Source: Alphaproteobacteria bacterium (GTDB taxonomy: Bacteria; Pseudomonadota; Alphaproteobacteria; Rs-D84). From it: a DNA stretch of 64,000 nucleotides. The stretch lies in NCBI GenBank assembly GCA_015062445.1, contig SUUQ01000001.1, positions 1 to 64,000 of the forward strand, read 5' to 3'. How positions within the stretch are numbered: position 1 is the first letter of the stretch; the number at the start of each line of letters is the position of its first letter. Made by a program: the position numbers and the translations under genes. The notes under the pieces are model-generated. The model was given only the letters and a program-made list of their open reading frames with translations, was not told the origin of the DNA and did no database searches. This document shows, piece by piece, positions 7,228 to 38,271 of the stretch.

Positions 7228-10200
7228 TTATTCCATGCTGGTTGAAATCATGTCGCCGTACATACCAACTTCGTCTGCACCGATAAAGCAACGGATTTTT
7301 GAACCGACATTGTCCATAAATTCGTTGATGGCGGCACGTTCGGCATCGTCCAGCTGGGCATCTTGGATGCTGTTAACAACACGGTTGGTCAAGACACCAC
7401 CAGCAATTGCACCGACACCGGCACCAATGCCTGCGGCAGCACCTGTGCTAAGCCCCTTCTTTTCTTTGGAACCATCTTTGGCCAATTTTTTACAACTTTC
7501 AAGCATAGGTGATACCTTATCGGTCAGTGTTTGTGAAGCAGTTTTCAGTGCTTTTTGAGCTTTGTCCAGTGCTTCTTCAGAAACGTCATCTTTTCTCTGT
7601 TCGTATGCTTTTGTTGCACTTACATAATCGTAATTTACGTCCATGTAGTCCCTTACTGCTGTGTTGACATCATCAGCCGTCCCGCCATTACTATTGATTA
7701 AGCTTTTCAACGAATTAACTGCACTTTGAACCGCTATACCATTGCGGGTATAAATAGCATTTTGAAAAGTATCATATTCTTTATCGCATTTATCTTCTGT
7801 TAATTTGTTATTTTTTATATTCGTCAGGCCGCTGAAGATATCGCCTTTTTGTATGCCTGCGCCCAGGTATGCACCGCCGGCACCGCCACCAATCGCACCC
7901 AGGGCAGTCATCCAACCTTTGATTTTGGGCTGGGCGGCCTGGGCATCGGCACGGGCATCGGCACCGGCCGCATTGGCTAACTCTTCCAATTTATCGTTTG
8001 GTATCCATGAACCGCATGTAAATGCATCGCCCGCCGCAAAGTATGCAGTTGCCCAATTCGCACCGCTGTTAATTGCGTCTTGGATACGTTTGTCATCAGA
8101 TTGCAGTGTAACACGCACACGGCAGAATGAACCGTACAGGTCGTTACTGGCCGCAAACTGGGTTGTCTTTAACCCGGCAGTGGCATAGTTTGTGGGAACC
8201 TTGTTCGATTTCAATTTGGCCCACATGAATGTTGAACCCATATCTTTGTTCCCCATTATGCCACCATTGTTTGATGACATACACATATTCTGCTGCTTGG
8301 TCAGTTTGGCATTATATTTGGCCTGGGCCTCGATTTCCAAATCGTAAATCAGGTCTTTGAACAATGTGCTGGCCGCCTGGGATTCAATATAGGTTGTGTA
8401 TGATAACATCACAGGTTTGTCAAATACCGCACCTGTTGCATCAACTGTATCACATACACCTTGGTCGCCACGGGCATTTTCACACAGTTTGTTGCCATTT
8501 TCATCAACGGCCGCAACCTGTTCAATGTTTTCGGTCATGGCAGATGTTGCACCGGCATCAATCCAATCTGAACGAACAGACCCAGCACCCCATGAACCAG
8601 CAGATGTGCTGTCGGCGATTTTCAGTTTATTTGCCTCTATCGCCAGGTGTTCTGAACAGACATCTGCGTTTTTAACCGTGTCAACGCACAGCCCCAATAC
8701 GATTGTGTAATCCAGTACACCGCCGACCTTGTTCATAGATTTGTCAAAGTTGGCATCACCACTGTTGGTCAATGATGAATAGATGTCCGTACGATTGCGA
8801 TAGCAATTTACATAATCCGCACCACACATGGACTTTACGCACGATGTTGCAATAGACTGGCACCGCTTTTTCATTTGGGCAATTGCCGCATCGCTGTAAT
8901 TATTTGCCAGGGATGCATTTAATGATGCAACAACACCAATTGGATCCAATTCTGCGCCATCGTCATATTCTGGGAACAATACGTCAAACGCATCGGCATC
9001 CATAAATGAATATGTATATGTGCCGGTTGAATTTGGATTCTGGGCCGCATATTTGCAGTTGGCATCAGTATTTACAACAGACAGACACCCTGTTCTGATT
9101 TCATTGCGGGTGTATTCATTGTTAATTGATTTATCGGTGGCACCAAATACCTGGGCATAGCAGGCCGCACCAGAACCACCACCACAGGTACGCATCGCAC
9201 ACGATTTAATCGTATTGACGCATTTTTCTTTTGCCTTGGTATCAAATTTGTTTACCAGTTCGGCAATTTTGGCACGCATACCAGAATTCATACGGGCAGA
9301 ATATGCCAAATCATATATTTCGGCCTGATTATCTTCGTCACGCAACTGGGACGATGATGGCATTTGACCATCACCAATAAATGTCGCATAGCAATATTTA
9401 TTTGAACCAATTGTGTCCAAACAGGCATTTTGAATATATGATGAAATATTTGACTTTGCAATAACAGCCGTTGCATCCACTTCGCCTGTGATTTCTGTAC
9501 CATTGTTAATCGCATCAACAATCGCAACCGTTTCAGCCGTTGCATTTTCATAGCACTTGTACGGATTGGCCGCACAGGCATTCAGAATACATTGGTCAAC
9601 AACCTTGTAACAGGTGGAAACCGCATTAACCGCCGCCAGGGCCGCACCTTCGGCAATCATTTCGCCAATACGACTGGATGCAGTGGGAACAGTGCTGGAC
9701 GTGGCACCAGCATTGCCAAACAATTCCAGCTTTCCATCAGATGCACAGCGGGCCAATGTGGAATCACAAAATACAGCTTGCTTCTTAAACTCGGTATTCG
9801 TGGTGCATAATTCAAAGTCTGCACCGCAAACACTGTCTTTGCGCAAGCATGACGAATAACGGCGAACACAATTCGATGTGTCGTACATGTTTTCAATCGC
9901 CGCCGCAGATATCATTTGACCTAAAACACTGCCATCAGTTGGATATGTGTATTCAGTGATTTCACCGTATGCATTCTTGGTCGCAACGTTCGACAGGGCA
10001 GATATGTTCGATGTACCAAACAAACTGGACACACCAGCCGATTGACACTGGGCCAATGTTGACAGGCATGTCGGCATCTTGGCATGGAATAAAACACGGG
10101 TTGTACATTCTTCGAAATTCGCACCACAGGCATCAGCACCCTTGATACACTGGGTATATGCATCAATGCATTCAGAATTTGCCAACAACGTTGATGCAGT

Positions 10201-10386
10201 TGTCGATGAACCTGTTGTGCCACCAGTTGTCACACCCGTCATCGCACCATTAATGTATGCAGACATTGTCGGCATGCGCCGCGCGTTCGCAGAACTTAAC
10301 ACGCTGGGGCGGGCAGTCGCCGCATGCGCCGCAGGTATTATGCTGAATAATGCCAATAAACTTACTGTATTTTTGAGAAAAGACAT
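7228..10386 (-). CDS. large secreted protein with repeated Cys modules and glycine-zipper segments
   Basis: 1052 residues, with a signal peptide (cleavage near AHA-AT). The N-terminal two thirds hold repeated modules of C-x6-C-x5-6-CGA-x4-C, for example CIDAYTQC...ACGANFEEC, CVRRYSSC...VCGADFELC and CQSIATSCVKSMCGADYVNC. The first two modules are followed by a second Cys pair and an LFG motif. The C-terminal third has two glycine-rich hydrophobic segments (GAIGGGAGGAYLGAG and AAAGIGAGVGAIAGG) of glycine-zipper type around a charged, probably helical stretch. The modules look like an internal duplication held by disulphides. The zippers suggest membrane insertion or oligomerisation. I know no function. 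The gene is followed by a terminator and is one of the longest in the window. Confidence 0.8.
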   Translation of the reverse strand: MSFLKNTVSLLALFSIIPAAHAATARPSVLSSANARRMPTMSAYINGAMTGVTTGGTTGSSTTASTLLANSECIDAYTQCIKGADACGANFEECTTRVLFHAKMPTCLSTLAQCQSAGVSSLFGTSNISALSNVATKNAYGEITEYTYPTDGSVLGQMISAAAIENMYDTSNCVRRYSSCLRKDSVCGADFELCTTNTEFKKQAVFCDSTLARCASDGKLELFGNAGATSSTVPTASSRIGEMIAEGAALAAVNAVSTCYKVVDQCILNACAANPYKCYENATAETVAIVDAINNGTEITGEVDATAVIAKSNISSYIQNACLDTIGSNKYCYATFIGDGQMPSSSQLRDEDNQAEIYDLAYSARMNSGMRAKIAELVNKFDTKAKEKCVNTIKSCAMRTCGGGSGAACYAQVFGATDKSINNEYTRNEIRTGCLSVVNTDANCKYAAQNPNSTGTYTYSFMDADAFDVLFPEYDDGAELDPIGVVASLNASLANNYSDAAIAQMKKRCQSIATSCVKSMCGADYVNCYRNRTDIYSSLTNSGDANFDKSMNKVGGVLDYTIVLGLCVDTVKNADVCSEHLAIEANKLKIADSTSAGSWGAGSVRSDWIDAGATSAMTENIEQVAAVDENGNKLCENARGDQGVCDTVDATGAVFDKPVMLSYTTYIESQAASTLFKDLIYDLEIEAQAKYNAKLTKQQNMCMSSNNGGIMGNKDMGSTFMWAKLKSNKVPTNYATAGLKTTQFAASNDLYGSFCRVRVTLQSDDKRIQDAINSGANWATAYFAAGDAFTCGSWIPNDKLEELANAAGADARADAQAAQPKIKGWMTALGAIGGGAGGAYLGAGIQKGDIFSGLTNIKNNKLTEDKCDKEYDTFQNAIYTRNGIAVQSAVNSLKSLINSNGGTADDVNTAVRDYMDVNYDYVSATKAYEQRKDDVSEEALDKAQKALKTASQTLTDKVSPMLESCKKLAKDGSKEKKGLSTGAAAGIGAGVGAIAGGVLTNRVVNSIQDAQLDDAERAAINEFMDNVGSKIRCFIGADEVGMYGDMISTSME

Positions 10387-10459: not shown

Positions 10460-11419
10460 CTATATATTTTCCAGTAAGTACTTTAATTCCAACATATCAT
10501 CGGGTAAACGGGTCTTGAAACGCATCTTTTCGCCAGTTGTCGGATGGGTAAATTCCAATACCTGGGCATGCAGCATCTGACCATCGTGCGTACGCAAAAA
10601 TTCCAACAAATCACCATCACGAACCGTGCCAAGACGCACAGAACCACGGCCATACAACGGATCACACAACACAGGAAAACCATGCGCAGACAGGTGAACA
10701 CGTATCTGGTGTGTGCGGCCGGTAAACAATGTGCAACGCATCTGGGATACACCCGCACGTGGCCATGCATTGACAACCGAAACTTCGGTATGGGAATCTT
10801 TGCCCCCAGTTTTTACCATGGTCATCTTTTGACGATTGCGGGACGAACGTGCAATCTGACCCGTGATATCCGCAGATTCCCAATTCGGGACCCCCCAAAC
10901 AAAGGCAATATACTGACGCGTCAGGTCGTGTTCAGAAAATGTTCGCACCAAGCTGCGATACGCTGCATCAGATTTGGCAAAAACCATTACACCACTGGTA
11001 TCCTTGTCCAGACGATGAACAACCCCAGGACGTGTGTCACCGCCCAATGCAGACAAATGCGTGTGCGACAAAATATTCTGAACCAATGTGCCCGTCTTGT
11101 TCCCAGCAGACGGATACATAACAACACCACGAGGTTTATTGATGACAATTATGTCTTCGTCTTCGAACAATATGTCTAAATCAAAGTCAGACGAGATATT
11201 TTCCAGTGCAACATCCGTCTGGGGGGATGGAATTTCAACATCAAAAATATCACCAGTGCGAATCTTGTCAGAAAACTTTACACGGCGACCATCAGTGTAA
11301 GAAACAGAAAATCGCTGAATCTCGCTGCGTGAAAATTCAGGCATCTGGGATGATAAATATTTGTCTATGCGTGTGATTTCATCTGTGTCCGATACAATAA
11401 ATCTGCGTGTTTGTGTCAT
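10460..11419 (-). CDS. rluD: RluD-type 23S rRNA pseudouridine synthase
   Basis: 319 residues. An N-terminal S4-like RNA-binding region (RIDKYLSSQMPEFSRSEIQ, about residues 17-70) is followed by the RluA-family catalytic domain with the HRLDKDTSG motif, whose Asp is the catalytic nucleophile, then GRTHQIRVHLSAHGFPVLCD. The EDEDIIVINKPRGVV block also fits RluD, which makes pseudouridines in helix 69 of 23S rRNA. RluC is the alternative, since the families share all core motifs. It is the last gene of the minus-strand operon starting at 16305, 8 nt behind a small secreted protein. Confidence 0.85.
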   Translation of the reverse strand: MTQTRRFIVSDTDEITRIDKYLSSQMPEFSRSEIQRFSVSYTDGRRVKFSDKIRTGDIFDVEIPSPQTDVALENISSDFDLDILFEDEDIIVINKPRGVVMYPSAGNKTGTLVQNILSHTHLSALGGDTRPGVVHRLDKDTSGVMVFAKSDAAYRSLVRTFSEHDLTRQYIAFVWGVPNWESADITGQIARSSRNRQKMTMVKTGGKDSHTEVSVVNAWPRAGVSQMRCTLFTGRTHQIRVHLSAHGFPVLCDPLYGRGSVRLGTVRDGDLLEFLRTHDGQMLHAQVLEFTHPTTGEKMRFKTRLPDDMLELKYLLENI

Positions 11420-11427
11420 GATGTGCC

Positions 11428-11883
11428 CTATTTATATTTATCCCAATCTGGGCCAACTGTACAATCAGACAGGTCAATTGTCAAATCACGACCACGGGCA
11501 TTAACAGGACATGTTAAAATCCCGGTTGTGGTTGCCTGGTCTGCGTCACGGGTCGCATTGCGATATGCAAAATTTATCGTGGTCGGGGCCGCAACACAGG
11601 CAATTGCTAAATCATTGTCCGTCCGACCATCAGGACCAACCCATACACGTACACCAAACCCCAAACCATAACATGGAAAACCATCCAGATAATATAAAAC
11701 CAGTCCACGACCAACCAATTTCTTGTCGCTGATAAATTTTCCATTGTATTCATTCAATGTTAAACCTGTGACGGCCTGCCAATCGGTGCTGGTGGAAAAA
11801 ATACTGATGCGCGCAGGCGCATCGTCTGCACACAATGCAGGCGCACACACAAACAACATCAATGCAATTAATATTCGCTTCAT
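11428..11883 (-). CDS. small secreted protein of unknown function
   Basis: 151 residues. A clear signal peptide (MKRILIALMLFVCAPALCA-DD) is followed by a compact domain with Cys pairs (FPCYGLGFG, AIACVAAP, ILTCPVN, LSDCTVG). I recognise no family. The start overlaps the stop of the zinc-ribbon gene by 4 nt (11880-11883), so the two are translationally coupled. It lies in the prepilin operon, so a periplasmic role alongside those proteins is possible but only inferred. Confidence 0.75.
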   Translation of the reverse strand: MKRILIALMLFVCAPALCADDAPARISIFSTSTDWQAVTGLTLNEYNGKFISDKKLVGRGLVLYYLDGFPCYGLGFGVRVWVGPDGRTDNDLAIACVAAPTTINFAYRNATRDADQATTTGILTCPVNARGRDLTIDLSDCTVGPDWDKYK

Positions 11884-12407
11884 TCGTTTTCCCCCGTTGG
11901 TACCTGTAAATCAGCCAACTGCACAGATATCTTTTGCGCACCAGGTGGCAACGCAGACAAAACATGACTGAAGTTCACACTGGCACCCGCATCCAGCAAT
12001 GTTGCAGACGGCATAAATTTCTGTTGCGATAAAACACGACCATCCCCATCCAATGACACAATTATCAAGTCTGGAACACCATAAATCTGGTCAGACACAT
12101 TCGTAATCGTGCCACCAACAATCACATGAGTATGGCCGTCTGAGTCAGTCGTATTCTCGACCGATTCAACAGATGCAATCAACGGACCACGTGATGCAGT
12201 ACGTGCCTGATGCTGGGTAATAACCGCAATGGTAAATATTATCGCAGACAACAATGCACACAGCGACGCAATAAACACCAACCATGTATTCTTGCGAGAC
12301 GGCGCATCAACAGACCATTTGTGCCCACATATCGCACACTGGACCGCAGATGACAAAACACTGTCCGTGTTATATTCTGTTTTACAAAAATCACATTTTA
12401 TTTTCAT
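11880..12407 (-). CDS. zinc-ribbon single-pass membrane protein (MJ0042/DUF3426-like)
   Basis: 175 residues. The N-terminus has a CDFC...CAIC double-CxxC zinc ribbon (residues 5-28, MJ0042 type), then a basic linker, one membrane helix (about 42-64) and a C-terminal beta-rich domain (~85-175) resembling the FxLyD/DUF3426 periplasmic domain found in alphaproteobacterial proteins of this layout. A cytoplasmic zinc ribbon and periplasmic C-terminus are inferred. It sits between the prepilin trio and the small secreted protein. Confidence 0.75.
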   Translation of the reverse strand: MKIKCDFCKTEYNTDSVLSSAVQCAICGHKWSVDAPSRKNTWLVFIASLCALLSAIIFTIAVITQHQARTASRGPLIASVESVENTTDSDGHTHVIVGGTITNVSDQIYGVPDLIIVSLDGDGRVLSQQKFMPSATLLDAGASVNFSHVLSALPPGAQKISVQLADLQVPTGENE

Positions 12408-12430: not shown

Positions 12431-13744
12431 TTATAATTTCAACAGACGATATTTTTCTTGGACCTGGGTTTGGATTTCTTGAATCGCATTCATATAGTCC
12501 GATACGGTCGCATTCTTGTTCGCAGATACCGCACCAAATATCTGACCAGACACAGTCGACATGTCACCATGACTGGACACCGCCAGGACTGCCATACGAT
12601 TTAATTCAACAAATGATATGTCAGATAAATTCGCAACGTTTGAGTTTGTGTCCCAATAAAATTCAGGATTGTTTGAATCTGCAACCTTGCCATAGACCGC
12701 CAATCGGGGCGTCATTGACCCCGCAAAACCAACCGTTACAAACATCGCATCAATTCGACCAGACGTCATGTCCAAAGACTGGGTAATCTTTAGTACCGAT
12801 AAATCACCATCAGAATCAACAGATAAACCAGACAGAGTCATGTTTGATGCCCATAAATTTTCTGCCGTAAGGGTCGAAAACTTGGCCGTGTCAGCCACTG
12901 TGGCTGTGCCAGATATTTCCAGATTCTTGGAATCTGATGACAACATACCCGCAACAGATGACGCACCAGCAGAAAACACACCATCAATCGTTGTACGATT
13001 TGAAAATATCATGCTGTTAGACGCAATGTCCGGCAACGCCAGCCCCTGGTTAAATTCCATGCGGTCCGCACCAATATATGCAGAATTGATAATATCATGC
13101 CCAGCCAAACTGAGTGCAGACATCATTTTGGCATCGTCTGGATTATCAGACGGAACACGCCATAAATACAGCGCATTATCACGATTTACAGGTGTCGTTT
13201 CAATTAACGCATTGTCAATATCAACACCCAGATCAATATTATCAGCATGCCATGTGCCAAACGAACCATACGCACGGGTACCATCAACAAACCCCATGTT
13301 GCCGCCAGACAAACCAACAATTTGACGTGTGCGAATTGGGGATATGTCATCAGATGCACGAACAACAATACCCTGCAATGATGACTGGCCAACAGAATCA
13401 GCCGTCTTTAATATGCGCAACTGATACAGTTCATCACCAGATTCCAATACAGATGGCGGCAGCCCATATGGTTCCAATTCTGATAATTTTACACGGGTAA
13501 TTGTACGACCAACTGTGCGCAACAATTCTGTTCGGTTGGCAACAATATAACGTTCCAGTGCAACCTGGATTTCCGTCATCTGATTCGTTATCGCAATGTT
13601 TTGAGCACGAATAACCGCATCTTGCTGATACCGAAAAATAAACGGAATTGCAACCACAGCCAGCGCAACACTTAGCAATAATTCTATTAAAATATTGCCG
13701 CGGACTGAATTGTTTTCGCAAAAAATATTTTTCGTGTTTCTCAT
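12431..13744 (-). CDS. large prepilin-like protein 3, fibre-type passenger
   Basis: 437 residues. The N-terminus carries a type IV prepilin signal: a polar leader ending in RG, then NILIELLLSVALAVVAIPF, with Glu at mature position 5 as in pilins. The leader of about 16 residues is long. After a helical stalk the chain turns into Ser/Thr/Ala/Asp-rich short repeats (SGTATVADTAKFSTLTAENL, LSLAGHDIINSAYIG), like phage tail fibres and PilV-type tip adhesins. Usual pilins have 150-200 residues, so about 300 are a passenger. The C-terminus (DYMNAIQEIQTQVQEKYRLL) is a predicted coiled coil. It is third in a head-to-tail trio, with 1 nt between it and the gene before it. Confidence 0.8.
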   Translation of the reverse strand: MRNTKNIFCENNSVRGNILIELLLSVALAVVAIPFIFRYQQDAVIRAQNIAITNQMTEIQVALERYIVANRTELLRTVGRTITRVKLSELEPYGLPPSVLESGDELYQLRILKTADSVGQSSLQGIVVRASDDISPIRTRQIVGLSGGNMGFVDGTRAYGSFGTWHADNIDLGVDIDNALIETTPVNRDNALYLWRVPSDNPDDAKMMSALSLAGHDIINSAYIGADRMEFNQGLALPDIASNSMIFSNRTTIDGVFSAGASSVAGMLSSDSKNLEISGTATVADTAKFSTLTAENLWASNMTLSGLSVDSDGDLSVLKITQSLDMTSGRIDAMFVTVGFAGSMTPRLAVYGKVADSNNPEFYWDTNSNVANLSDISFVELNRMAVLAVSSHGDMSTVSGQIFGAVSANKNATVSDYMNAIQEIQTQVQEKYRLLKL

Positions 13745-13745
13745 G

Positions 13746-14963
13746 TTATCTTAGTGTGTATTTTGTTGGTTGCGAGCCCCCCTGCCAGCCGGAACGGTAC
13801 AACTTGGAAAACGAACCAACAGATGGTTGACGTGGCAATTCTGCACGCGATACCGTCAGACGACTGAAGGTTGGAGGTTTTGTCGATGGAAATACCCAAT
13901 TGCCAATGCGCAATGGCGATGTGGTAGAATACAACAACTCGCCCGATACCGTTAAACCAAAGTTGTCATAAAATACCATTTCTTCGGCAGAAATAAACGG
14001 AACTGCAACAGAATTTGCAGATATACCTGTAAATCCACTGATGGTGCGCGCAGTATCAGACTTTATTACCATATCATTGGCAACGTTTACCGATTTAGTT
14101 ATGTTGGCACGATCTGTAATTACACGACCGGTCGTTGTGTAACCACGACCATTTAAGCTTTCGGCATAAATATTGCGAAATCCAGACACATCACCAGATA
14201 CACGCAACGCACCCAGCGATACAGAATCACCTTCGATATTGGCACCAGACGAAAAGTAAATCGTGTTCGCCGCAGCGTGTTCAGTATCTAAAAATGTGGT
14301 ATCTGCATCCTTGGCACGGGCAGACTTTCCAGACACAGTCGCAACGTTATAAATATGATGACGCCCCATATCTAAATCACGCAACATAACATTCAAACCA
14401 TCTTCGCCAGATGTCGCACGATGCAAATATTTAGATGTATCTTCGCCAGAAACATCACGCGAAATTCGATATATCAAATCGCCCGCCATAAAATCAGGCG
14501 CAGCAACCGCCCAGGACGCACCATAGGCAACACCATCTGTACCAACAACCGCCGCATCAGAACCAATATGACGCGCAATCCGGTTCGTTCGCAGATTTGT
14601 GTTGCCTGTTTCAAATGCCAAATACATGTCCGTTATCGTGGCACCAACCACAGAATACTTATCAATAAACCCAGCCGCTGCATCAGGCGAAATATTCGAC
14701 AAATCTTCGTCCGACAAACGAATCTGTGCAGTATCAGGCCATTTGTCTTGGTTCATGCGAACAAAGTTCAGCGCATCGTCACGAACAGACATTATACGCC
14801 GCGCATATGCCATGTCGCGTAAATCTGCACTGTTGCGTGAAATCTGACTGTAGACAAATGGGGTCGCAACAGATATTATCGCCATCGCCAGTATCACTTC
14901 CATAACACTGGCACCGAACGATTCAAATGGATAAGATTTACTGTCTAATACAATCACTGCCAC
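13746..14963 (-). CDS. large prepilin-like protein 2, fibre-type passenger
   Basis: 405 residues. The N-terminus has a leader ending in FG, then ASVMEVILAMAIISVATPF with Glu at mature position 5, a helical stalk (residues ~35-80), and a long beta-rich passenger. The passenger contains the tail-fibre-like phrases RDLDMGRHHIYNVATVSG and LGALRVSGDVSGFRNIYAES. The C-terminal ~60 residues are basic and Pro/Ser-rich. The first 26 nt overlap the end of the gene before it, so translation is probably coupled. A minor pilin or pilus-tip adhesin role is inferred; no pilus motor, secretin or prepilin peptidase gene is present in this window. Confidence 0.8.
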   Translation of the reverse strand: MAVIVLDSKSYPFESFGASVMEVILAMAIISVATPFVYSQISRNSADLRDMAYARRIMSVRDDALNFVRMNQDKWPDTAQIRLSDEDLSNISPDAAAGFIDKYSVVGATITDMYLAFETGNTNLRTNRIARHIGSDAAVVGTDGVAYGASWAVAAPDFMAGDLIYRISRDVSGEDTSKYLHRATSGEDGLNVMLRDLDMGRHHIYNVATVSGKSARAKDADTTFLDTEHAAANTIYFSSGANIEGDSVSLGALRVSGDVSGFRNIYAESLNGRGYTTTGRVITDRANITKSVNVANDMVIKSDTARTISGFTGISANSVAVPFISAEEMVFYDNFGLTVSGELLYSTTSPLRIGNWVFPSTKPPTFSRLTVSRAELPRQPSVGSFSKLYRSGWQGGSQPTKYTLR

Positions 14964-16305
14964 CTGCCATTAAACACTGTTTTATGTTAATACGTTGTTC
15001 TAGTCGCTGCCAATACAGATAATGACATATCAAATACTGGGATAAAGACTGCTTGTTATACACACCATCAAGTTGCTTAATCAATGACGCACAATTTACA
15101 ACCTGGCCATCGTCTGCAGACGGGGTCGCAATAATTGAAAAAGCATCGTTGTTTATGTTTGAAACATACGCGTCTGGTAATAAACTGGTACCAGATGGTC
15201 GTATGTCAATCACAACAGCACCAGACATTCCATCATCCAGACCAACAGATGTCTGATCGCGCAGGGTTATGTTGGATGTGTACAGGGTTTCAACCTCTAT
15301 CCCTGATTTGGTACTGTATTCCAATGTTTCGTTGTCAACAAAAACGTCTTGGCCGCGGGTCGTGTTCAAATAAGACGAGATATCAAGACGCTCGACAGAA
15401 AAACTGATGCGATCAGACACAACATTGCCACGAACATTCCATGTGTTTGGCCCCGAAAAATTGCCAGACCCAGCCGTCATCGCAAAATCATGCACAGACG
15501 CATCACCAACCGTCATATTCCCTGTTTCACCAAATACAGATACTGTACGGGCAATCATACTGTCCGCAAACAGGGTTCCACGCGCCAATGTTAATGCAGA
15601 TTCACCAGAACGACTTTGAAATACGGCCTTGGACGTGGTCATTTCTGCGATGTTATTGCGAATCTTGCGGCCAGATTCTATGCCAGATATCGTTAATGTA
15701 TCAAACTGGGCAGAATCAAATTCGCCACGCAACGAAAATAAGTTACCAACACTGTTCAAAGAATACCCACCCATGTCCAAATCTGTCAGAAAACCACTGT
15801 TTTCCAAATTCGGTTCGTTGCGGCGAACAACATCAGAATAAACATCTGTTAAATCAACACCAATATGGATAACATCATCCCTGTCAGTGGCAGACGCATA
15901 AAAACCAATGCGCCGTATTAATTCTGCACGTTGAATACCAGACAACTTGCCACCAGACAATTCTAAATATGCAGACACAGACACAGGCGTTTTATGTATA
16001 ATCAGGGCAATATCCTGGCCCAGGGCCGTTCGTGGCACAAACCCCAGCGGCAAACCATATGGTTCCAACACATCTGCAAAGTCATTGCCAGATATAACCG
16101 TCGTGTCATACGAAATATTTTTTGCGTTTTCACGAACAAATATACGGGATGCTGTTTGGGCAACATCAACCTGGCGAACAGATGAATACATACGAGAATC
16201 TGTGTTTCGACCCGCCATTTGCCGTGATATAATCGGAACAAATGCAAATATTAAACCCAATGCCAACAGGGCCTGCAATAAAAAATTTCCACGTTCTTGG
16301 TACAA
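14938..16305 (-). CDS. large prepilin-like protein 1, Gln instead of Glu5, fibre-type passenger
   Basis: 455 residues, first gene of the operon. The prepilin signal is short (MYQERG, then NFLLQALLALGLIFAFVPI), with Gln at mature position 5 where pilins carry Glu. In type II secretion pseudopilins, GspK also lacks Glu5 and caps the tip, so this protein may be the tip subunit. The passenger has the same fibre phrases (LTDLDMGGYSLNSVGNLFS). The C-terminus adds four Cys (VNCASLI, YLICHYL, KQCLM, DCIRQ) that may form disulphides. The start is a TTG at 16303-16305, chosen because AGGAGG lies at 16317-16322 and the prepilin signal begins directly after it. Confidence 0.8.
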   Translation of the reverse strand: MYQERGNFLLQALLALGLIFAFVPIISRQMAGRNTDSRMYSSVRQVDVAQTASRIFVRENAKNISYDTTVISGNDFADVLEPYGLPLGFVPRTALGQDIALIIHKTPVSVSAYLELSGGKLSGIQRAELIRRIGFYASATDRDDVIHIGVDLTDVYSDVVRRNEPNLENSGFLTDLDMGGYSLNSVGNLFSLRGEFDSAQFDTLTISGIESGRKIRNNIAEMTTSKAVFQSRSGESALTLARGTLFADSMIARTVSVFGETGNMTVGDASVHDFAMTAGSGNFSGPNTWNVRGNVVSDRISFSVERLDISSYLNTTRGQDVFVDNETLEYSTKSGIEVETLYTSNITLRDQTSVGLDDGMSGAVVIDIRPSGTSLLPDAYVSNINNDAFSIIATPSADDGQVVNCASLIKQLDGVYNKQSLSQYLICHYLYWQRLEQRINIKQCLMAGGSDCIRQ

Positions 16306-16331: not shown

Positions 16332-16360
16332 AGCATAGCAACAGAAAAAAATTATTGCAA
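16332..16360 (-). promoter_or_regulatory. promoter of the prepilin operon
   Basis: Minus strand: TTGCAA (16355-16360), 17-nt spacer, TATGCT (16332-16337) with a TGC extension. The start is near 16325, giving a ~20-nt leader that carries AGGAGG (16317-16322) in front of the TTG start. Confidence 0.65.
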
Positions 16361-16873: not shown

Positions 16874-18442
16874 ATGGATAATAACTATACAGTTTTGGCA
16901 CGCAAATATCGCAGTCAGGATTTCAAATCACTTATCGGACAGGAAGTTTTGGTCAAAACACTGACCACTGCAATCAACACATCTCGGATTGCACATGCAT
17001 ATATTTTTACAGGAATTCGGGGAACAGGTAAAACCAGTACCGCACGTATTCTGGCCAAGGCATTAAACTGTCTGGCAGAAGACCACGCAACAGCAAACCC
17101 ATGTGGTGTATGTGAAAACTGTCGGGCAATCGCCGCAGGACAACATATTGACGTTATGGAAATTGACGCAGCATCACATACAGGTGTTGATAATATGCGT
17201 GATATTCTGGATGCGGCACAATACAGACCAACAAACGGACGATTCAAGGTTTATATTATCGACGAAGTTCATATGCTGTCGACATCTGCATTTAATGCGT
17301 TGCTGAAAACACTGGAAGAACCACCGGCACATGTAATCTTTATCCTGGCAACAACAGAAATTAGAAAAGTGCCTGTCACAATCCTGTCACGGTGCCAACG
17401 TTTTGACCTGGTGCGGGTGCCAGTCGAGACATTAAAACAACACTTTGCATGGATTGCAGAACAGGAAAAAGTTTCGCTGACAGATGAAGCAAATGAACTG
17501 TTGGCACGGGCGGCAGATGGTTCTGTGCGTGACGGACTGTCATTGCTGGACCAGGCAATCGCACAGACAGGTGGCAATGTCGATGCGGATGCTGTGCTGG
17601 ATATGCTGAAACGTGCAGACCGGGGTGTGGTTTTGGATATGATGAAAACACTGCTGTCAGGCGATGTGGCATCGGCACTGAACAAGGTTGATGATATCTA
17701 TAACAACGGTGCAGATTTGGCAATGCTGTTGACCGATATGATGGAATGGACACACTGGGCAACACGTATGCATCCAGCACTGCATGCAGGGGATGTGACA
17801 AATTCACCGTATACCGCAGACCAACGTGAACAAATAAACGATATTATCAATCGGGTATCGCTGAATACACTGTCACGTATCTGGCAGGTTATGGTTGCAG
17901 CAGTACCAGAAATGCAGGCCGCAGGAAATCAAAAACAATGCTTTGATATGCTGATTATCCGAATGATGCATATCGCAGACATGCCGCCAATTCCAGAAAT
18001 GATAAAACAACAGGAATCTGCAAATCGTATGCGGGATGTGAAAAATATACTGGCCGACCGAATGTCACAAAATTCAGGTCAGGCGGATGCATCACAGCAA
18101 AAACAAACAAAAACAATTAACAGCGCAGCTGAACTGGCAACAGCACTGCAAGAATCAAAAGAAATCCTGCTGTTCTCGTATTATAGCAGCAATATCGAAA
18201 TATCGGAATTTGCAGATGGTAAAATTAAGTACTTTGACCGCAAAGGCGAAGGCGATTTTATTCATAAACTGGGCAAATGGCTGATGGATAAAACAGGGAA
18301 ACAATGGCAGATGGAAAGAGTCATGGAATCTGTCCATACAAATACAATCAGCGAACAAAAACAAGAAGAACTGGCGGCAGACCCACTGGTTGCCAGTGCA
18401 ATGAACCTGTTCGAAAACGCAGAAATCGTAGGAGTAAAATAA
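16874..18442 (+). CDS. dnaX: DNA polymerase III subunit gamma/tau
   Basis: 522 residues. This is the clamp-loader ATPase of the replisome. The Walker A motif is GIRGTGKT (47-54). The zinc site is Cys66, Cys77, Cys80 and Cys83, and Walker B is IIDEVHML (around 123-130). The Sensor-1/SRC region reads ATTEIRKVPVTILSRCQRF. The C-terminal ~170 residues are a tau-like tail. In many bacteria dnaX is followed by ybaB and recR; here ybaB lies ~7 kb away on the other strand and a prepilin gene follows, overlapping by 1 nt (TAATG). Confidence 0.97.
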   Translation: MDNNYTVLARKYRSQDFKSLIGQEVLVKTLTTAINTSRIAHAYIFTGIRGTGKTSTARILAKALNCLAEDHATANPCGVCENCRAIAAGQHIDVMEIDAASHTGVDNMRDILDAAQYRPTNGRFKVYIIDEVHMLSTSAFNALLKTLEEPPAHVIFILATTEIRKVPVTILSRCQRFDLVRVPVETLKQHFAWIAEQEKVSLTDEANELLARAADGSVRDGLSLLDQAIAQTGGNVDADAVLDMLKRADRGVVLDMMKTLLSGDVASALNKVDDIYNNGADLAMLLTDMMEWTHWATRMHPALHAGDVTNSPYTADQREQINDIINRVSLNTLSRIWQVMVAAVPEMQAAGNQKQCFDMLIIRMMHIADMPPIPEMIKQQESANRMRDVKNILADRMSQNSGQADASQQKQTKTINSAAELATALQESKEILLFSYYSSNIEISEFADGKIKYFDRKGEGDFIHKLGKWLMDKTGKQWQMERVMESVHTNTISEQKQEELAADPLVASAMNLFENAEIVGVK

Positions 18443-18900
18443 TGAATCAACAATCGGGGCGGTCACTGGTCGAGGTTATCGGGGCAATCGCAATCGCAGG
18501 TCTGATGACGGCATCTGCGGTCGGTATGTACGGCATGATAAAAAGCAATCAAGAAAGAAACTTTGCAAGCGCAACAATCGAACAAATCGCACAAGACGTT
18601 AAAACACTGATGGAAATGCAAGGTACATACGAAGGTGTGTCAGTAACATATCTGATTAAACAGGGTGCATTGCAATCTGATGTCCCACCAATCGGTGGAC
18701 AGGGCTGGTCCGTTGTCAGCAGCGCAGATGGACAATCGTTTTCAATAAATCTGGTCGATTTAACCGCCAACGACTGTAATTTCTTGACATCAAATAAACC
18801 ACAGTGGGCGGCAGCAATACTGGTAAATGGATTCGAGGCAGGTATTGCAGAAAACTGCTTTGAAACAGCGACAAACCAGGTATCCTTTATCGTAGAGTAA
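18442..18900 (+). CDS. type IV prepilin-like protein
   Basis: 152 residues. The leader MNQQSG is followed by RSLVEVIGAIAIAGLMTAS, a standard prepilin signal with Glu at mature position 5, a ~30-residue hydrophobic helix, and a small C-terminal domain with two Cys (NDCNFL, ENCFE) about 50 residues apart, like the disulphide loop of pilins. The size is that of a normal pilin, unlike the trio at 12431-16305. An AGGAG lies 7 nt upstream and the start overlaps the dnaX stop. The OmpA-like lipoprotein gene follows without a gap. It could be the major subunit for the large prepilin-like proteins; that is inference. Confidence 0.85.
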   Translation: MNQQSGRSLVEVIGAIAIAGLMTASAVGMYGMIKSNQERNFASATIEQIAQDVKTLMEMQGTYEGVSVTYLIKQGALQSDVPPIGGQGWSVVSSADGQSFSINLVDLTANDCNFLTSNKPQWAAAILVNGFEAGIAENCFETATNQVSFIVE

Positions 18901-36306: not shown

Positions 36307-36336
36307 TTGCGGTGCAATGAAATAAATTCCTATACT
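36307..36336 (+). promoter_or_regulatory. comEC promoter, leaderless start
   Basis: TTGCGG (36307-36312), 18-nt spacer, TATACT (36331-36336). The ATG at 36343 is 6 nt after the -10, at the expected transcription start. Confidence 0.6.
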
Positions 36337-36342
36337 GGGGGT

Positions 36343-38271
36343 ATGCGGGATTGGCTGGATAATCAGTATCAAAATTTGTTCCTGTACGTGCCATTCTTGC
36401 TGGCAGGTGGTGGGGCATTATACTTTGCACACAATATCGAACCAAATTTTATCACTGTATTTGTCGGTTTCTGTCTGGCATTTATCGGACTGTGTTTTCG
36501 AAAGGTGCCAATCCCACTTCGTGCAATCCTGGTTATGGTAATCGGATTTTGCTGGGCTGTAATGTTCACCGACATCGTTGACACACCGCAAATGCGCAGA
36601 AATATATTTGACCAACACCTGGTGGGGACAGTACAAAACATCGACCACACATTCGATAAATCCAGAATCTATCTGAACGTCAATGCCGCAGATATAAACG
36701 CAGGCAATGGGACTGCAACAATTAGACTGACTGTCAAAGACAACCCAAAACTGCCAAGCATTGGTGATAAAATCAGGGTCACAGGTGGACTGTTTCGGCC
36801 GGCACCTGCGTATGCACCAGAAACATTTGACTATGCACGATGGGCATACTTTAACGGGATAACCGCCACAGGTTATGCAAATGAAATCACAATACTGGAG
36901 CAGTCCAGACACAGCAATATAAATACATTGCGGAATTATCTGCACAACAGGTCAAATTCTGCATTGGCAGACACACTGGTTCTGGGGTATAAATCTGCAA
37001 TACCAAAATCTGATAATGAAATCTGGGTCGCCAGTGGTATCGGACATGTTTGGTCAATCAGTGGCTTTCATATGACACTGGTTGGCGGATGGTTGTTCTT
37101 GATATTTTATACTATATTTCGGGCAATTCCGTATCTGGTTTGCAGGGTGCCTGCAAAAATACCAGCAATGGGTTGTGCGTGGTTGGGACTGATGGGATAT
37201 CTGTTTATATCAGGCGTGGATGTCGCAACAGTTCGTGCGTTCCTGATGACAACGTTAGTGTTCCTGGCATTCGCAGTCGGACGCAGTGCAATTTCACTGC
37301 GAAATATCGCAATTGCGTTCATCTGTATATTTGCGTTGAATCCACACTATGTTATGCAGGCGGGTTTTCAATTATCTTTTGCGGCGGTGTTTGGACTGGT
37401 CTGGCTGTACAGTGTGGTTAAGCCAAAAATGCCACAAAACAGATTACTGAAAATTATTTATGCGTGTATACTGACCTCAATCGTTGCAACACTGTTCACA
37501 ATGCCGTTTGTCGCCATGCACTTTGGTGCGATTCAAATTTATGGATTGGTGGGGAATTTAGTTTTACTGCCGATATTTTCATTTGTTATTATGCCACTGG
37601 TTATGATTGGTGTATGTGGGGCAGTGATGGGAATACATGCGCCGCTGGTTTGGGCAGACTATGTGTATGCGTATACACTGGAAATGGCAAAGCATATCGC
37701 AGAACTGCCGTATGCCAGTATCAGTGTGCCACATATTCCAAATGCCGCAATTGTCTGTATGATTTTGGCAATGATGTCTGTGGTGCTGATACGGACAATT
37801 AAAATAAAAATCAACTGGATTGGGCTTGCAGTATTCACACTTATCGGTATCGCAATTGTTTATACAAACCCAAAGCCAATATTCTTGGCAACATACGATA
37901 ATGAACTGGTCGCATTTATGGGCGACGATGGATTACTGAGATTCAATAAATCACGGGCATCAAATCATTACTTTGCATTTGATACGTGGAAGCAACTGGT
38001 CGGTCAAGATATAAATACACCAAACAAACGATACAAACATGACAAAGGAATATTCAGATATGGCGATATTGTCTATGTCCAACGTTTTATGCCACTGATG
38101 AATAATATCGAATCGCTGTGCAGCGATGACAGTGTGCGGTACATCGTATCATACATGGATATAAAATCAGAAAAGTGCAAAAATAAAATTCTGCGGGGCG
38201 GGTTTGTTATATTCCCAGACGGACATGTAAAGTATACCCAGACACAACGACAATGGCACAATTATAAATAA
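36343..38271 (+). CDS. comEC: ComEC/Rec2-family DNA-uptake channel
   Basis: 642 residues. An N-terminal soluble domain between the first membrane helices (~50-200) has the DUF4131 layout (IRLTVKDNPKLPSIGDKIRV). It is followed by the Competence core with GIGHVWSISGFHMTLVGGW, many helices to about residue 510, and a C-terminal soluble domain of ~130 residues. The metallo-beta-lactamase part of full-length ComEC is not evident in the tail (no HxHxDH). ComEC carries single-stranded DNA across the inner membrane in natural transformation. The last 10 nt overlap the end of truA, which is convergent. Confidence 0.9.
   Translation: MRDWLDNQYQNLFLYVPFLLAGGGALYFAHNIEPNFITVFVGFCLAFIGLCFRKVPIPLRAILVMVIGFCWAVMFTDIVDTPQMRRNIFDQHLVGTVQNIDHTFDKSRIYLNVNAADINAGNGTATIRLTVKDNPKLPSIGDKIRVTGGLFRPAPAYAPETFDYARWAYFNGITATGYANEITILEQSRHSNINTLRNYLHNRSNSALADTLVLGYKSAIPKSDNEIWVASGIGHVWSISGFHMTLVGGWLFLIFYTIFRAIPYLVCRVPAKIPAMGCAWLGLMGYLFISGVDVATVRAFLMTTLVFLAFAVGRSAISLRNIAIAFICIFALNPHYVMQAGFQLSFAAVFGLVWLYSVVKPKMPQNRLLKIIYACILTSIVATLFTMPFVAMHFGAIQIYGLVGNLVLLPIFSFVIMPLVMIGVCGAVMGIHAPLVWADYVYAYTLEMAKHIAELPYASISVPHIPNAAIVCMILAMMSVVLIRTIKIKINWIGLAVFTLIGIAIVYTNPKPIFLATYDNELVAFMGDDGLLRFNKSRASNHYFAFDTWKQLVGQDINTPNKRYKHDKGIFRYGDIVYVQRFMPLMNNIESLCSDDSVRYIVSYMDIKSEKCKNKILRGGFVIFPDGHVKYTQTQRQWHNYK

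Follow-up and report, generated by a model that had tools for sequence, protein, structure and literature searches.

Three coupled prepilin genes

The 64,000-nt stretch of DNA analysed here (the window) comprises bases 1–64000 of contig 9 in a Ca. Enterousia genome of 1.05 Mb and 98% completeness, whose closest named relatives are Candidatus Enterousia and gut Alphaproteobacteria. The genus Enterousia has been assigned to the order Rs-D84 (PMC12306168). On the reverse strand of the window lie three adjacent genes, here called A, B and C (Table 1), which encode three distinct members of the PilV family of type IVb minor pilins and are the subject of this report. A first-pass annotation, made from the sequence alone, had delimited the same open reading frames (ORFs) with the same lengths, and the frames are genuine, as orthologues 45–76% identical over their full length occur in dozens of species. 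The three genes form a single coupled unit. In the window, A and B share 26 bp; an A–B overlap is found in all 76 loci, and the B–C gap is ≤10 nt in 76 of 78, in agreement with the single operon originally proposed. The promoter placed at 16332–16360 scored below the threshold of our scan.

All three proteins begin as prepilins, as had been noticed. Essentially all orthologues carry a type IV prepilin leader followed by a long hydrophobic helix; position −1 is Gly and position +18 Pro in virtually every alignment row (A, 70; B, 76; C, 78). The cleavage motifs, with the slash at the cleavage site, are ERG/NFLLQ in A, SFG/ASVME in B and VRG/NILIE in C. Among the genus orthologues, position +5 is Gln in A (70/70) and Glu in B (75/76) and C (77/78). 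Four Cys residues near the C-terminus of A (405, 427, 444 and 452) are invariant.

AlphaFold models of A and C, with a predicted local distance difference test score (pLDDT) of 59.2 and 66.7, respectively, comprise a long helix, an alpha/beta head, a beta-rich middle of poor prediction quality and an end predicted with more confidence. The initial description of the passengers as unlike pilin heads did not survive these models, since a type IVb-like pilin fold makes up the first ~150–190 residues of A and C and the passenger follows it. The Foldseek ranking was uninformative (best E about 0.5), and pilins were separated from noise by VIA re-alignment alone, which was informative on the heads and little beyond. 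By this measure, the head of C aligns with S. typhi PilS (3fhu, Z 7.7), TcpA (8uhf, Z 7.5) and TcpB (7w63, Z 6.5), and that of A with PilA1 (Z 9.5) and TcpA (3hrv, Z 8.3); the scores of both heads against type IVb pilins, PilA1, PilW, TcpA, TcpB and pseudopilins are well above those against unrelated chains. An ordinary globular secreted enzyme, which the first-pass annotation had named as the finding that would speak against its reading, was rejected, as no enzyme family was found in Pfam or NCBIfam and no Foldseek match reached E ≤ 0.001.

The trio belongs to the PilV family

PilV is the tip adhesin of R64-type thin pili and an adhesive minor pilin of type IVb pili. A tblastn comparison of gene C with 72,556 plasmid records gave 34 weak matches (best 4e-5), and the best 20 of the 34 were all pilV. 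The Pfam domain Shufflon_N was found in six orthologues of C (best 2.8e-8) and five of B (best 8.9e-4). The orthologues were needed for this result: single-sequence searches of Pfam and NCBIfam returned nothing for B and C and one sub-threshold match for A, and Shufflon_N searched directly in the source genome gave no match, the window proteins scoring below threshold. Profile comparison identifies the three as paralogues, with a probability of 98.5 for C–B (over ~300 columns), 96.4 for C–A and 91.1 for A–B. Thus, A, B and C are three distinct, diverged type IVb minor pilins, each a new member of a known family; what is new is the fixed trio. The suggestion of PilV-type pilus-tip proteins is upheld by the pilV and Shufflon_N matches. 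The proteins had also been called giant, yet plasmid PilV proteins are already 424–507 aa long, and the trio, at 405–455 aa, is of usual PilV size.

The likeness to phage tail fibres, on which the earlier description had leaned, is better explained by PilV itself. Plasmid PilV proteins show the same succession of motifs, including W...YLYR..P...LN.M.TAL.M.GNDI..A at the junction of head and shaft, and the tail-fibre reading was dropped for this reason. The phrase LDMGGYSLNSVGNL is this PilV junction motif. It had been ascribed to all three proteins; the exact form is present in A only, and B and C carry the diverged forms LDMGRHHIYNVATV and LSLAGHDIINSAYI. A phage origin was likewise rejected, with no match to the trio in IMG/VR, INPHARED (50,697 phage records) or PHROGs. 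A shufflon was rejected as well, there being no convincing inverted repeats and the C-terminal ends being conserved. Except for the last few residues, conservation of the C-terminal parts roughly equals that of the heads, so the trio is not a hypervariable adhesin.

Conservation across the order

The survey of related genomes that had been recommended found the trio across the genus and in five further families. Of the 58 other genus genomes searched, nearly all have an orthologue of C, which in a few is a partial match; only G045 gave no match. In all 71 sufficiently long genus loci, A, B and C are complete, present once each and in the same order, and trio profiles find exactly three matches in the source genome. 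A tandem trio in this order also occurs in families f3, f4, f5 and f6 (L038–L045), and in family f2 an A–B pair stands at a contig end (L047). The genes flanking the trio in f2–f6 differ from those in the window: outside the genus, the neighbours, with names read by eye, are recO, ksgA or ftsEX-plsC-like. When families are compared by bit score, the best match of each protein is usually its own counterpart (A to A, B to B, C to C). For a tree of the N-terminal 260 residues, four label changes, the minimum, sufficed, and none of 200 shuffles gave so low a number. From the same-order trio across families and this tree, we conclude that the trio is probably older than the order Rs-D84. One genus genome that is 99% complete (G265) has the pil ATPase and no trio. 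With 897 of its about 898 kb read, dnaX, the pilin and other neighbours are missing too, and this absence of the whole neighbourhood, dnaX included, makes an assembly gap most likely, rather than loss of the trio.

PilV-like genes extend beyond the order, with a match at E ≤ 1e-6 in 23 of 240 sampled genomes of the class. Genome G124 has a tandem pair, and genome G167, from another family (L153:9058-14073), has three tandem large prepilins of 659, 426 and 578 aa that are weakly similar to A, B and C and possibly form an independent trio. In view of these two cases, PilV-like genes may have multiplied more than once. A class relative in family f27, the 1.4-Mb metagenome-assembled genome G097 (L049, L050, L143, L144 and L145), holds 43 matches, many of them at contig ends, to the N-terminus of one PilV-like prepilin (~287 aa); over 20 are near full length with 53–60% identity. 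These genes are dispersed, encode about 400–770 aa and diverge at their C-termini, and the related G100 has nine matches. The set resembles an extensive multigene family of pilus adhesins that has no shufflon.

Pilus machinery and neighbouring genes

The source genome encodes a type IVb pilus (T4bP) set of TcpQ, PilN, PilO, PilP, ATPase, platform and peptidase. The first-pass annotation found no motor, secretin or peptidase gene, and none was found here in the 64,000-nt window either; the machine lies elsewhere in the genome. On contig 9, TcpQ and PilN are at 240.4–243.0 kb and PilO, PilP, PilQ and PilR at 111.0–115.7 kb, and an A24 peptidase is on contig 4 at 62.5 kb (TcpQ, 3.9e-18; secretin, 3.4e-13; A24 peptidase, 7.4e-15; PilO, 1e-8). 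PilN, PilO, PilP, PilQ and PilR have their matches in sister families within one ordered pil operon, TcpQ-N-O-P-Q-R, an order also seen in a Xanthomonas citri plasmid.

This machinery bears on the alternative that the trio serves no pilus at all and forms large prepilin-anchored surface fibres or a pseudopilus for secretion like that of the type II secretion system (T2SS). The minor pseudopilins GspIJK are a similar set, with one large member free of Glu at position +5 (Glu5), and GspI and XcpV/W are among the fold matches of C. However, TcpQ, PilO and PilN mark the machine as a T4bP one, the sequence relatives are PilV, and neither Pfam nor NCBIfam gave a GspK-family match, which leaves this alternative very improbable.

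A candidate major pilin stands close to the trio. The window holds a small PilS-like prepilin, omitted from the earlier description along with comEC, which lies 2.1 kb upstream of A on the opposite strand and is the trio's neighbour in 63 of the 65 loci that could be tested. PilS was recognised in 21 of 25 of its orthologues (best 5.2e-4), and at least one small PilS-like pilin is present in 40 of 40 relatives. A second one is encoded on contig 12 of the source genome (G000:C12:59487-59858). The small-pilin profile gave 19 matches in G059, some of them in ORFs of 370–540 aa, and eight in G019, most of which cluster on one contig.

The remaining neighbours are less closely tied to the pilus. 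The genes noted beside the trio, for the zinc-ribbon protein, the small secreted protein and the pseudouridine synthase, are indeed its constant neighbours in the genus, but not in other families of the order, and the zinc-ribbon protein probably lies outside the pilus. A secreted Cys-rich protein of 1052 aa without a convincing Pfam match is encoded at 7228–10386 (reverse strand), and its gene follows the trio operon downstream in most sufficiently long genus loci. A scattered P-type type IV secretion system is marked by a VirB4-like gene (L005:49-2292), ~7 kb upstream of the pil genes, and a VirB11-like gene (L007:6702-7697).

Table 1. Features of the window discussed in the text
Feature	Position	Strand	Remarks
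Gene A, PilV-like minor pilin	14938..16305	-	455 aa; TTG start; predicted tip-most subunit
Gene B, PilV-like minor pilin	13746..14963	-	405 aa; GTG start
Gene C, PilV-like minor pilin	12431..13744	-	437 aa; conserved C-terminal helix
Small PilS-like type IVb prepilin, candidate major pilin	18436..18900	+	154 aa
Zinc-ribbon/DUF3426-like single-pass membrane protein	11880..12407	-	175 aa; genus-level neighbour
Small secreted protein	11428..11883	-	151 aa; genus-level neighbour
RluD-type pseudouridine synthase, housekeeping neighbour	10460..11419	-	PF00849, 3.8e-29
comEC, ComEC-type DNA-uptake channel	36307..38271	+	654 aa; PF03772, 1.8e-54

A proposed heteromeric tip

We propose, with a probability of roughly 0.6, that A, B and C are PilV minor pilins of a T4bP that form a heteromeric priming and tip complex in which A comes first. 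In each, a prepilin helix and a type IVb-like pilin head would be followed by the PilV junction motif, then a beta-rich shaft and an end domain of its own. After cleavage by the A24 peptidase, the three would assemble together in the inner membrane, with A, lacking Glu5, at the top and the Glu5-bearing B and C docked below. The PilQ ATPase and the PilR platform would then add the PilS-like major pilin beneath, and the complex would leave through the PilN secretin, after which its three conserved end domains could contact mucus, DNA or a partner cell. Placing the three in one complex, ordering them and naming possible ligands are steps that we infer.

The choice of A as the cap rests on its lack of Glu5 while B and C keep the residue. 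A sole minor pilin without Glu5 has been proposed as the marker of the first subunit, and TcpB carrying E5Q still starts and assembles pili, with later functions being poor (PMC5207764). The same residue bears on the idea that the trio are accessory minor pilins placed laterally, altering the shaft while another pilin primes assembly. Certain minor pilins are indeed spread along the shaft (PMC10191384), and B and C retain Glu5; yet A without Glu5 should not insert in mid-filament (PMC5207764), PilV-like proteins of this large, stalked kind are expected at the tip, and the source genome yielded no further PilV-like minor pilin. This arrangement is accordingly improbable. A further alternative is that A, B and C are three alternative tips, each a homotrimer like CofB or TcpB on a different pilus with a different adhesin. 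The three end domains do differ, and CofB and TcpB are homotrimers (PMC9565799). Against this, the trio is always together, single-copy, translationally coupled and in one order, its end domains are conserved rather than variable, and Glu5 is missing in A alone, so that we regard separate tips as unlikely.

Several observations weigh against the heteromeric tip. The Glu5-free cap is not order-wide: exactly one member of the trio, A, lacks Glu5 in families f1 and f4, while A of families f2, f3, f5 and f6 retains it. A has no direct match to PilV or Shufflon_N and enters the family through its paralogy with C and B. The shafts are predicted at low confidence (pLDDT 25–60), clade support in the tree is moderate to weak (B, 79/91; A, 53/61) and C needs two changes, and about 100 kb separate the trio from the genes for the ATPase and the platform.

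As to function, ComEC, encoded in the same window, was found in 20 of the 21 genomes searched in this reduced-genome order, and DNA uptake is on this ground a fair guess for the tip; ComEC is a possible functional partner of the pilus. Partner-cell contact is the other candidate, since a 2025 survey of reduced genomes, in which type IV pili are mentioned for another lineage only, infers that members of the order live as symbionts or parasites (PMC12306168). A competence pilus, with the trio as a DNA-binding tip and ComEC as the channel supplying nucleotides to a host-dependent cell, is compatible with the heteromeric tip and draws on the presence of ComEC, a small pilin and a T4bP machine. It remains tentative and somewhat doubtful, as ComEC is widespread and occurs also in bacteria whose uptake pili are of other kinds (10 of 14 control genomes), no DNA-binding domain was identified, and R64-like T4bP are otherwise known for mating-pair contact. 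The fuller version of our proposal, in which three PilV paralogues form an obligate hetero-oligomer in a defined order, A on top, and a host-associated order of reduced genomes uses it for partner-cell contact or DNA scavenging, has about even odds.

Comparison with known systems

With the trio and its machinery, a type IVb pilus can be ascribed to small-genome gut bacteria of Rs-D84, an uncultured alphaproteobacterial order. We found no paper in the open literature that joins Rs-D84 with a pilus, the subscription literature being outside the search, and within this scope the first-pass view that the trio had not been described as a system holds. Three distinct PilV paralogues in fixed order are new here, where studied type IVb pili use one, and they suggest a tip made of three unlike parts. 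If the proposal is true, the tip architecture would stand midway between the GspHIJK tip and the T4bP tip made of a single homotrimer, and a trio with a Glu5-free member would show how duplication of one adhesin can give rise to a heteromeric tip, as has been suggested before (PMC5207764).

The closest counterpart is PilV of IncI/R64-type plasmids (Shufflon_N, PF04917), which shares with the trio the prepilin signal, pilin head, junction motif, stalked C-terminal end, a length of 400–500 aa and the accompanying TcpQ-PilN-PilO-PilP-PilQ-PilR machinery. The trio differs in being three paralogues instead of one, chromosomal and away from the pil operon, and in having conserved ends without shufflon inverted repeats where the ends of plasmid PilV are shuffled. 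Other Alphaproteobacteria encode single PilV-like proteins of 966–1024 aa (L155, L156 and L157) with the same N-terminal family (profile E down to 1e-38), each being one longer gene and not a trio. At L155:9147-12883, L156:5490-9209 and L157:5740-9568, such a gene adjoins one for a membrane protein of 237–273 aa that resembles PilM by position only; the one tested had no Pfam match.

In the toxin-coregulated pilus (TCP) and the colonization factor antigen III (CFA/III) pilus, a homotrimer of a single minor pilin, TcpB or CofB, occupies the tip and initiates assembly (PMC9565799, PMC5207764). CofB, TcpB and LngB of longus resemble the trio as T4bP proteins with a pilin head, a stalk, an end domain and a proposed role as priming tip. 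They are single genes, however, with CofB and TcpB forming homotrimers, whereas here three distinct single-copy chains include a Glu5-free member. In T2SS and type IVa pili (T4aP), a complex of unlike minor pilins capped by a Glu5-free member starts assembly (PMC10191384, PMC5207764), and T4bP have been described as lacking the HIJK minor-pilin complex and having fewer minor pilins, such as CofB (PMC10191384). Like the GspHIJK pseudopilins and the minor-pilin tips of T4aP, the trio consists of several unlike minor pilins encoded together, and in the family of the window exactly one member is without Glu5, as in GspHIJK. It departs from GspHIJK in belonging to the PilV family and not to GspK or PilX, in having A first and not last in the operon, and in the large size of all three members.

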